From: Archangium gephyra
GTDB taxonomy: Bacteria; Myxococcota; Myxococcia; Myxococcales; Myxococcaceae
Direction of reading: 5' to 3'
DNA: 64,000 bases
Assembly: GCF_001027285.1 (NCBI RefSeq)
Contig: NZ_CP011509.1
Span: 9,138,501 to 9,202,500 of the forward strand
The position numbers were made by a program, and so were the translations under genes. This document shows positions 1 to 2,479 of this stretch, piece after piece (within the stretch, counting starts at the first letter, position 1; every line of letters starts with the position of its first letter). A model generated the notes under the pieces. The model was not told where the DNA came from, did no database searches, and was given only the letters and a program-made list of their open reading frames with translations.

Positions 1-624
1 CGCCTTGCGCTCGAAACGGACGTCGGCGCTGGCTTCCGCCTTCTTCAGCAACTCGCCTGAGAGCTCGGGGTTGACCTCCGGCGGCTGCACATGGCCCGCG
101 TAGGGCTGGCCGAGCGCCATGTAGAACGGGCTCATCTCCTTGCCCGTGGACCAGGAGATCAACTGGGTCCGGTGGCTCCGCATCTTCAAGGCATGCGGCG
201 TCCCTTCCGGGATGCTCGCGAAATCGCCCCGGATCAGCAGGTGGTGCTCCTTCCCGAGCCAGAGCTCGACCTCTCCGTCCAGGACGAGCAGGGCCTCGTG
301 CGTGCGAGCGTGGGTGTGCAGCGGAAGGTTCGCGTCCCGGCCTCCTGTCAGCACGGCGGTCTCGAAGAGGTCCTGGGTGTCCTCTCCTCTCGCGACCAGG
401 TCCGCGACGAGCCCTCCCACGAGGTACCGCTCGCCCTCGCCGTTGCGAATGTAATAGGGCACGGCCTTGCCTGGCAGCTTGCCCTCCGGCGTGACCTTCT
501 GGATGTCGATGCCACTGTCTGTTTTGGGAAGCGCCTGACCTTGGGCCCCCTGGCCCGAGCCGAGAACGAACATCCCCAGCGCCGCACCCAGCACGGCCAT
601 CCTCGTCTTCAATGCGTGTCTCAT
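1..624 (-). CDS. Cupin-domain protein, quercetin dioxygenase-like (3' end outside window)
   Basis: At least 208 codons are present and the reading frame is still open at base 1, so the C-terminus is missing. The protein starts MRHALKTRMAVLGAALG, a signal-peptide-like N-terminus, so export is likely. Residues about 90-150 form a cupin barrel with the metal-ligand patterns LPLHTHARTHEALLVLDGE and IPEGTPHALK. Small cupins of this kind resemble quercetin 2,3-dioxygenase-type proteins, but the substrate cannot be read from sequence. The gene is divergent from the LysR-type gene at 720, with 95 bases between them, so that regulator probably controls it. The start at 624 is the first ATG ahead of the hydrophobic segment. 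Confidence 0.8.
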   Translation of the reverse strand, partial: MRHALKTRMAVLGAALGMFVLGSGQGAQGQALPKTDSGIDIQKVTPEGKLPGKAVPYYIRNGEGERYLVGGLVADLVARGEDTQDLFETAVLTGGRDANLPLHTHARTHEALLVLDGEVELWLGKEHHLLIRGDFASIPEGTPHALKMRSHRTQLISWSTGKEMSPFYMALGQPYAGHVQPPEVNPELSGELLKKAEASADVRFERKA

Positions 625-684
625 TCGATTCCGCCTTTGCGTTCGGGGATGAAGATGGTTGGGACGGCTTGAGAAATCCAATAG

Positions 685-704
685 ATTGAAACTCCGCTTT
701 TAAT
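685..704. promoter_or_regulatory. Imperfect inverted repeat in the cupin/LysR divergent promoter
   Basis: ATTGAAA (685-691) and TTTTAAT (698-704) form a 7-base inverted repeat with one mismatch around a 6-base GC spacer. It is the only AT-rich block in the 95-base intergenic region. Its place between a LysR-type gene and its divergent neighbour is typical of a LysR operator or overlapping promoters. It does not fit the strict T-N11-A spacing, so the operator role is an inference. Confidence 0.4.
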
Positions 705-719
705 CATCGGGAGTGATGA

Positions 720-1604
720 ATGGAGCTGCGCCATCTCCGCTACTTCGTCGCCGTGGCCGAGGAGCTGCACTTCGCTCGCGCGGCCAGACGGCTGAGCATC
801 GTGCAGCCCGCGCTGAGCATGCAGATCAAGTCACTCGAGGAGGAGTTGGGGACACGGCTCCTGGAGCGCACCCGGCGCCATGTCGAGCTCACCGAGGCCG
901 GCAGGCTCTTCCTGGAGGAGGCACGCCGGACCCTGGAGCAGGCGGAGCGGGCGAAGCGGGTCGCGACACGGGCGGGACAGGGTGAGCTGGGGCGTCTCGG
1001 GATCGGCTACTCCGTCAATGCCGCCTACTCGGGCGTGCTGGCCAGGACGCTCAAGGCCTTCCGACAACGTGCGCCGGACATCGAGCTGCTGCTCCATGAG
1101 TTGCACCCGTTCGACCAGCTCGAGGCCCTGCTGGAGGGACGCATCCAGCTCGGCTTCCTCACGGCCCCCGCCCTTCCAATCCCTCCCGAGTTGGTCACGG
1201 TGCAGGTAGGTGCCTGGCCGTTGATGGTGGCCCTGCCCTCCGACCACCCGCTGTGCGCACGAGCCCGCGTCCCGGTTGAGCTGCTGGTGGAGGAGTCCTT
1301 CGTCGACTACACCGGCTCGAAGGGGGAGCAAGGGCTTCCCGCCATGCAACGGATTGGGGGCTTCGTTCCCCGCATTCGCTATCACAGCACCAACATCATG
1401 GCGGTCATCAGTCTGGTGGCCGCGGGCCTTGGCGTGGCGCTGGTCCCCTCGTCCATCGTGTCGCTCAACATCGGCGGCAACGTCGTCTACCGTCCGCTCA
1501 CCGGTGTGAGCGGGTTGATGGAGATGTCCGTCGCGTACCGCCGCAATGAGAAGGCTCCCGCCGTGAGAGCCTTCCTGAAGGTCATTCAAGAGCAGTCCGG
1601 CTGA
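720..1604 (+). CDS. LysR-family transcriptional regulator
   Basis: This is a 294-residue regulator of normal LysR length. The N-terminal winged helix-turn-helix (residues about 1-60) reads MELRHLRYFVAVAEELHFARAA followed by QPALSMQIKSLEEELG, the classic LysR signature. The rest is the periplasmic-binding-protein-like effector domain. GGGAG lies just upstream of ATG 720, which supports this start. It is divergent from the cupin gene ending at 624 and is most likely its regulator and an autoregulator. The co-inducer is unknown. Confidence 0.93.
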   Translation: MELRHLRYFVAVAEELHFARAARRLSIVQPALSMQIKSLEEELGTRLLERTRRHVELTEAGRLFLEEARRTLEQAERAKRVATRAGQGELGRLGIGYSVNAAYSGVLARTLKAFRQRAPDIELLLHELHPFDQLEALLEGRIQLGFLTAPALPIPPELVTVQVGAWPLMVALPSDHPLCARARVPVELLVEESFVDYTGSKGEQGLPAMQRIGGFVPRIRYHSTNIMAVISLVAAGLGVALVPSSIVSLNIGGNVVYRPLTGVSGLMEMSVAYRRNEKAPAVRAFLKVIQEQSG

Positions 1605-1673
1605 ACAGCCACCCGCGCCACCCCCCTGAGCGGGCTATCCTCCCTGGAACTTCCGCTGGAGGATGCCTCGAAC

Positions 1674-2330
1674 ATGAGTCCGACTCGCTGGTGGCACCGC
1701 CTGTGGGGCCAGGAGCCGAAGCCCCCGGAGCCATCGAAGACACCAGAGCCGCCCCAGACGCCGCGGACCCCGAGGACGCCCCAGACGCTGGAGGTCGCAC
1801 CGCTTCCGGGCTGGTCTCGCAGCAAGGAGGTCGAGCGGATGTTGCGTGACCGCATCATCATGATCGGCACGCCCATCGACGACGCAATCGCCAATGTCGT
1901 CGTCGCGCAGCTCCTCTTCCTCGAGAGCGAGGACCCTGAGGCGGGCATCTCGCTGTACCTCAACTCTCCGGGGGGCTCCGTCACCGCGTCGCTCGCCATC
2001 CGCGACACCTTGGAATACGTGAAGCCGCCCGTATCCACCATCTGCATGGGCCGGTGCCACGGCACGGCCGCGTTGCTGCTGGCCTGCGGAGCCCGGGGCC
2101 AGCGCATCTCCCTGCCCCAGGGGCGTATCGGTATCGTGCCCCTCGAGGTGAGAGCGGGCACGGCGGATGACCCACAGATCCGCCATACCCTCGACACCAT
2201 CGTCCACCTGTTCGCCGAGTGCACCGGCCAGACACGGGAGACGGTGCGCAAGGACCTGACGCACGGGCGCGAGTTCTCTCCCGAGAGCGCGATGGCTTAC
2301 GGGCTCATCGACTCGGTGGTGAACCGCTGA
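1674..2330 (+). CDS. ClpP-fold protein lacking the Ser-His-Asp triad (ClpR-like pseudoprotease)
   Basis: The protein has 218 residues. Residues about 45-218 align along the whole ClpP fold: the IIMIGTPIDD strand, YLNSPGGSVTASLAI, STICMGR, LPQGRIGI, and a C-terminal AMAYGLIDSVV. The catalytic positions do not match active ClpP. The Ser of GQAASMGA is Gly130 (GRCHGTAA), the His of RIMIHQP is Val155 (RIGIVPL), and the Asp before the final helix is Gly198. The oxyanion GG loop is intact. Residues 15-38 are a proline/threonine-rich extension unlike a usual ClpP propeptide. ClpR-type subunits of plastids and cyanobacteria are known catalytically dead ClpP relatives that assemble with active subunits; a structural role in a mixed Clp ring is inferred here. 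No ClpX or ClpA gene is adjacent. Confidence 0.88.
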   Translation: MSPTRWWHRLWGQEPKPPEPSKTPEPPQTPRTPRTPQTLEVAPLPGWSRSKEVERMLRDRIIMIGTPIDDAIANVVVAQLLFLESEDPEAGISLYLNSPGGSVTASLAIRDTLEYVKPPVSTICMGRCHGTAALLLACGARGQRISLPQGRIGIVPLEVRAGTADDPQIRHTLDTIVHLFAECTGQTRETVRKDLTHGREFSPESAMAYGLIDSVVNR

Positions 2331-2479
2331 ACCCGTGAGCACGTCGGATGTATCACCTGGGGGCCCAGCGCTCCCCCGTCCGCCCGCCCGGCTGGCTGAT
2401 ACGGGAGGGCGTGGCCAGCGCGAGGCGCCATCCAAACCTTGAGTGAAGCGTCTTTTGCTCCCCACCAGGAGAGGGCTTG

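Follow-up and report, generated by a model that had tools for sequence, protein, structure and literature searches.

Can a ClpP homologue that has lost its entire catalytic triad still be a working protein, and what would it do if it no longer cuts? This question is raised by a gene in a 64,000-nucleotide stretch of DNA (the window), in which all features described here lie on the plus strand. The open reading frame at 1674..2330 starts with ATG, ends with TGA and encodes 218 amino acids. It was assigned as a triad-less ClpP-like paralogue based on the ORF list, its match to PF00574, its omega value and its position in a clade of similar proteins. A putative ribosome-binding-like GGAGG can be read at 1658..1662, 11 nt 5' of the ATG, and a LysR-type regulator identified via Pfam (720..1604) ends 69 nt 5' of the gene.

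Fold and triad positions

The ClpP domain spans residues 52-217 (1827..2324), where the Pfam model PF00574 (CLP_protease) scores 161.8 bits with a cut-off of 20.2. In case of the NCBIfam ClpP equivalog TIGR00493, the window protein reaches 163.7 bits, below the cut-off of 308.6. The window's genome (G000; 12.49 Mb, one contig) encodes two further ClpPs at 4088378-4088914 (+) and 11275008-11275547 (-), so that the window gene represents a third copy with ca. 51% identity to each of the others. An AlphaFold2 model of the window protein had a mean pLDDT of 84.9 and a pTM of 0.75, with pLDDT values of 92-98 over most of residues 51-218, except for 151-170 (81, 77), and low confidence for residues 1-49. 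VIA-align returned solved ClpPs with Z scores of 28.5-29.4 and rmsd values of 0.9-2.2 Å over 160-174 residues among the 50 entries listed. The original prediction had claimed that the ClpP fold is retained including the SPGGS loop. This is borne out by the predicted structure, by VIA-align Z scores of up to 29.4 and by an intact NSPGGS loop at residues 97-102.

To place the triad positions, 197 loci were reduced to 186 ClpP-domain ORFs of at least 150 residues and 145 distinct sequences; ORF fragments shorter than 150 residues were left out of the counts. The window protein carries Gly130 (2061..2063), Val155 (2136..2138) and Gly198 (2265..2267) at the positions of Ser97, His122 and Asp171 (E. 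coli numbering; the numbering of the G000 ClpPs gives the same columns), exactly the three substitutions claimed before. The residue-level match rests on sequence alignment, since VIA-align reports ranges only. Gly130 lies within a C95-[SH]-G97 motif common to the family described below, the HQP motif is lost around Val155 and the sensor residue Arg170 preceding Gly198 is replaced by His197. Across the 145 distinct proteins, 138 have S at the Ser column and seven have G. At the His column, 138 have H, five have T and two have V, while the Asp column shows D in 138 proteins and E (3), G (2), K (1) or Q (1) in the others. All three residues are missing in the same seven proteins and present in all 138 other distinct ClpPs extracted. 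Besides the window protein, the triad-less set contains a single protein from each of G018, G019, G042, G056, G073 and G079. The sequence alignment places neither Ser nor His nor Asp at the three positions of the window protein, and none of the seven clade members keeps any triad residue; neither outcome that the original prediction named as refuting it was therefore observed. Judged by sequence, catalysis is lost together with Ser97, His122 and Asp171.

Distribution and phylogenetic placement

A profile built from the seven members (A2) was searched in 147 genomes of the class, where it gave 301-346 bits for its own members, while no other ClpP exceeded 227.5 bits. All seven carriers (7/147) belong to the window's bacterial family (7/96 genomes), with one of six genomes in the window's genus and 2/16, 1/1 and 3/27 in three others, and each of the other carrier genomes has at least two further ClpP matches. 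A profile search at the phylum level (195 genomes) added no member; its two extra matches scored ca. 227 bits, the level of catalytic ClpPs. When public contigs were scanned with peptides of the window protein, every distinct protein of at least 150 residues from the best 80 loci had the triad. Such range searches may overlook distant members from other phyla.

In a tree based on all columns, the seven proteins form one clade with an SH-aLRT value of 100. This tree contains 58 of the 145 distinct rows (less than 88% identity to rows kept; every second public-contig row) and gave a warning of two long branches meeting, the window copy and G073. With G073 left out the other six still group (SH-aLRT 97), and leaving out the window copy yields a value of 99. 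After removal of the active-site and handle columns (128 columns remaining), the seven are again one clade with bootstrap and SH-aLRT values of 100 and 97, the bootstrap not having settled. Speaking against the grouping, the window copy is closest by identity over these 128 columns to a catalytic ClpP of G001 (64%), compared with 61% to G073. In these trees of ClpP-domain proteins the clade branches from bacterial ClpPs, and the window copy is 44-54% identical to its kin.

A phage origin was rejected: the best PHROG match reached 48.4 bits over residues 51-126, compared with 161.8 bits for Pfam ClpP, and all 123 matching phage records showed less than 60% identity; 79 of 80 viral matches had S/H/D, one had S/H/E with a D two residues on, and none had Gly at the Ser position. 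A phage head maturation protease was discarded based on these PHROG and phage-record matches and on the gene neighbours (LysR, SDR and M48 genes), and plasmid carriage because all 130 matching records were below 60% identity. A known anti-phage defence protein was likewise rejected, as PADLOC assigned no family.

Selection and damaged copies

Fitting a codon model to the seven members (F3x4 frequencies) resulted in an omega of 0.122 with a log-likelihood of -2773.4, compared with -2938.3 when omega was set to 1 using the same tree and a fixed kappa; neutrality thus costs 165 log units. Eight catalytic ClpPs gave an omega of 0.059, and subsets of the family gave 0.136 (five members of the WWNPF type, see below), 0.116 (three members) and 0.036 (the window copy and two kin). 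Pairwise NG86 dN/dS ratios of 0.41-0.70 look relaxed. As NG86 ignores codon bias and the GC3 bias is strong here, these values were set aside in favour of the F3x4 model; we read them as inflated by codon bias, yet they leave room for some relaxation. The codon model shows the family to be under purifying selection.

Damaged copies exist as well. All that remains in G028 corresponds to residues 1-31 and 139-196 of the G018 protein. This relic (L200, 1501 onward) has an internal deletion and an open frame of 96 amino acids in which the Trp-Trp start and the C-terminal part are kept. In G056 the Trp-Trp motif and the ClpP domain lie in different frames, where an assembly error is possible (draft of ca. 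820 contigs). The truncated and frame-broken copies show that the gene can be lost. Together with the patchy distribution (7/96 genomes of the bacterial family) and with no neighbouring gene recognized as common between genera, they indicate that the function is dispensable.

The same damaged copies and patchy distribution would also fit a decaying pseudogene, i.e. a ClpP duplicate without function in the window's species. This is very improbable given that the window copy is an intact full-length ORF at 44-54% identity to its kin, that omega is low for the family and lower still for the window copy and two kin, that the codon-position GC contents are 0.64/0.52/0.89, and that four new residues (C95, G97, P123 and R172) are invariant in all seven members.

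Changes in the active site, handle and N-terminus

We compared the seven members at 78 positions whose residue is conserved in 90% or more of the catalytic ClpPs, defining a position as lost when kept in at most two of the seven. Of the 23 positions that fall within the active site or handle (95-98, 115-141 and 167-174), 17 are lost, compared with 8 of the remaining 55 (Fisher p 7.6e-7, a descriptive value only, as the regions were set after the residue table had been inspected). The lost positions include S97, H122, Q123, P124, Q131, E141, R170 and D171, with H122, Q123, Q131 and R170 each absent in 7/7 members, meaning that the HQP and QXT motifs and the sensor Arg170 are gone. According to PMC9035409, which also gives the roles of the handle and the apical sites, HQP, QXT and the oligomerization sensor form a network that stabilizes the active ClpP double ring. 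The loss of this ring-ring network would make a normal tetradecamer, formed alone or with ClpP, doubtful. Outside the active site and handle, four of the eight changed positions (73, 77, 80 and 81; window residues 106, 110, 113 and 114) are located on one helix of the model, with a spacing expected for one helix face, suggesting a changed interface in the predicted structure.

The handle is shortened. In the AlphaFold2 models, the handle helix comprises 18 residues in the window protein (residues 167-184; 2172..2225) and 26 in the genome's own catalytic ClpP used as a control, a difference that may be partly conformational because several top structure matches are compact- or compressed-state ClpPs. 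Handle helices of compact ClpPs are described as 2-3 turns shorter (PMC9823225). At the sequence level, a handle deletion is found in 6/7 members and does not depend on conformational state: the His-to-Asp span measures 42-45 in these six, whereas G073 has 50 and all 138 catalytic ClpPs have 49-50.

The new residues at the former active site raise the question of whether the nucleophile has moved, resulting in a Cys hydrolase or an acyl-binding site in place of the Ser triad. A G-x-C-x-G motif at 93-97 is found in 6/7 members, Cys95 is present in all seven compared with ca. 2% of catalytic ClpPs, and Ser96 occurs in six. Such an enzyme is nevertheless extremely improbable since the seven members have no His in common, their shared acidic residues (Asp37, 78, 167 and 186) are also found in catalytic ClpPs, the window copy has His instead of Ser at 96 and G073 is without Gly93.

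The N-terminus differs as well. The usual axial-loop sequence, which is tied to ClpX contact (PMC9035409), is gone. In its place, Trp-Trp is found near the start of all six members with an in-frame N-terminus, as WWHRLWG in the window copy (residues 6-12; 1689..1709, by alignment, with a low-confidence AlphaFold2 helix over residues 3-10), as WWRRLWG in G073 and as MxWWNPFxK in G018, G019, G042 and G079. A DNA search for the WWNPF pattern with up to one mismatch in 96 genomes recovered the five copies of this form, including the out-of-frame one of G056. The only further matches were the relic in G028 and an ORF of G075 that looks unrelated. At this stringency the motif is a property of the triad-less family and not a widespread tag. 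In the window copy it is followed by a Pro/Thr-rich linker (residues 13-49; 1710..1820; block pLDDT 47-60), the longest in the family. The unusual N-terminal extension proposed earlier is real, but its long Pro/Thr part is peculiar to the window copy and the conserved element is the short Trp-Trp motif.

We take positions 23, 48, 49, 60, 62, 82, 90, 92, 112, 114 and 189 to line the apical docking pocket of ClpP. The window protein keeps L48, F49, Y62, Y82, I90, M92, L114 and V189, and carries minority residues at positions 23 and 112 (Met and Ile). The pocket is less well kept in the relatives, with Arg at position 60 in 5/7 members and Gln or Leu at position 82 in two.

Genomic neighbourhood

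In the close relative G004, the flanking backbone is present on both sides at 93-94% identity while ca. 9 kb ending at window position 2358, including the ClpP-like gene, is replaced by ca. 1.9 kb; the two share one 191-bp piece. This variable block consists of window positions 1-2358 and ca. 6.6 kb upstream (L169 6876-15859). It contains acyltransferase-like, HPPD-like, FAD monooxygenase-like, c-type cytochrome-like, cupin, LysR and ClpP-like genes, with all neighbour names but LysR assigned by eye. DNA resembling the cupin-LysR part was found elsewhere in G003 and G006, both without a family member. The block replacement and the separate occurrence of cupin-LysR DNA mark the ClpP-like gene as accessory.

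Using crude gene calls inspected by eye, no operon partner common between genera was recognized in the six relatives and no Clp ATPase gene was recognized beside family members. In G018 and G019, which belong to one genus, a hydrolase-like gene adjoins and a TetR-like gene lies nearby (by eye). In G079 (L116 8571-10565) the ClpP-like gene is located directly behind RarA-like AAA+ and YigZ-like genes on the same strand (by eye), a pair that was not recognized in the other carriers. Separately, paired same-strand ClpP matches ca. 110 bp apart, as if representing tandem clpP genes, were seen in genus g26, namely in G094 (L186, L089) and G089 (L176, L185).

Discussion

Taken together, we lean towards a pseudoprotease that arose from a bacterial ClpP in the bacterial family of the window and that would act as a Clp-linked pseudo-subunit. 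The claim of a functional pseudoprotease is supported by seven triad-less members in one clade, an omega of 0.122 and a retained fold, and a new, non-cutting role for the protein is most likely. By analogy, the best reading is a functional ClpR-like pseudoprotease working through ClpP-type ring contacts. The protein would use ClpP-type heptameric ring contacts, either on its own or in rings shared with the genome's two catalytic ClpPs. As a dead subunit or cap, it could alter the pore, ClpX or ClpA docking, or the number of active sites, while the N-terminal Trp-Trp peptide on its flexible tether may recruit or anchor a partner.

An unlikely, though substantial, alternative is a stand-alone dead ClpP fold outside the Clp system, a single heptameric ring or smaller oligomer whose groove would bind peptides or a partner and whose Trp-Trp tether would serve as a membrane or protein anchor. 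It would account for the loss of the ring-ring elements and axial-loop sequence with retention of the head and the NSPGG loop, for a Trp-Trp motif that is conserved despite a variable linker, and for a neighbourhood where no Clp ATPase gene was recognized and where, in G079, a RarA-like AAA+ gene adjoins (both by eye). The window protein, however, retains most of the apical docking pocket, for which no use outside the Clp system is obvious, and the anchor role of the Trp-Trp motif is a guess.

The same pocket and tether could also be combined in a cap or anti-adaptor that evolved from ClpP and now regulates it, and that predatory, multicellular bacteria would keep as an optional module. Here, a dead ring that keeps most of its apical pocket and cannot pair normally ring to ring would present seven tethered Trp-Trp peptides. 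These could dock into the pockets of a partner or of the catalytic ClpP, where they would compete with ClpX or ClpA or take their place. We consider this specific scheme improbable.

A further bacterial family of triad-less ClpPs would reveal which parts of ClpP are useful without proteolysis. In this family the triad and the ring-ring network were lost together, while selection has preserved the head and a good part of the docking surface. The family offers a natural tool for separating docking from degradation.

Relation to known Clp proteins

Among the matches listed in the open-access literature, no description of a triad-less myxobacterial ClpP family was found. Compared with ClpP (S14, PF00574), the family shares the fold, the NSPGG loop, most head residues and most of the apical pocket, but differs in the absence of Ser/His/Asp, HQP, QXT and the sensor Arg, in the shortened handle and in the N-terminus. 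Additional ClpPs are known from myxobacteria: Myxococcus xanthus has ClpP2 beside ClpP1, with ClpP2 being deletable and showing no activity on Suc-LY-AMC (PMC11423568). ClpP2, however, has a classic triad and is 79.6% identical to ClpP1 (PMC11423568), in contrast to the triad-less third copy of the window. The ClpP1P2 hetero-complexes of Listeria, Mycobacterium and Chlamydia (PMC11423568, PMC9035409, PMC9823225) provide a precedent for a paralogue that is silent by itself but functions, or may function, as part of a mixed complex, whereas the mycobacterial and chlamydial paralogues described in these sources have triads and the window's family has none.

The closest analogue is ClpR, a ClpP homologue without the triad that occurs beside catalytic ClpPs in cyanobacteria, plastids and apicoplasts (PMC7966870). 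Like ClpR, the window's family consists of triad-less ClpP homologues in genomes with catalytic ClpPs. In plastids, ClpRs form part of the protease core, and the ClpR of apicoplasts is essential (PMC7966870), whereas the family described here is accessory (7/96 genomes of the bacterial family) and branches from bacterial ClpPs. Among the 60 PDB matches listed for the family profile, only generic ClpP molecule names appear, which could hide a ClpR. The likeness to ClpR put forward in the original prediction thus stands only as an analogy between triad-less ClpP homologues; with HQP, QXT, the sensor Arg and some of the handle missing, the protein is unlikely to be a ring-to-ring partner of the standard kind, and the two kinds of dead ClpP possibly have separate origins.
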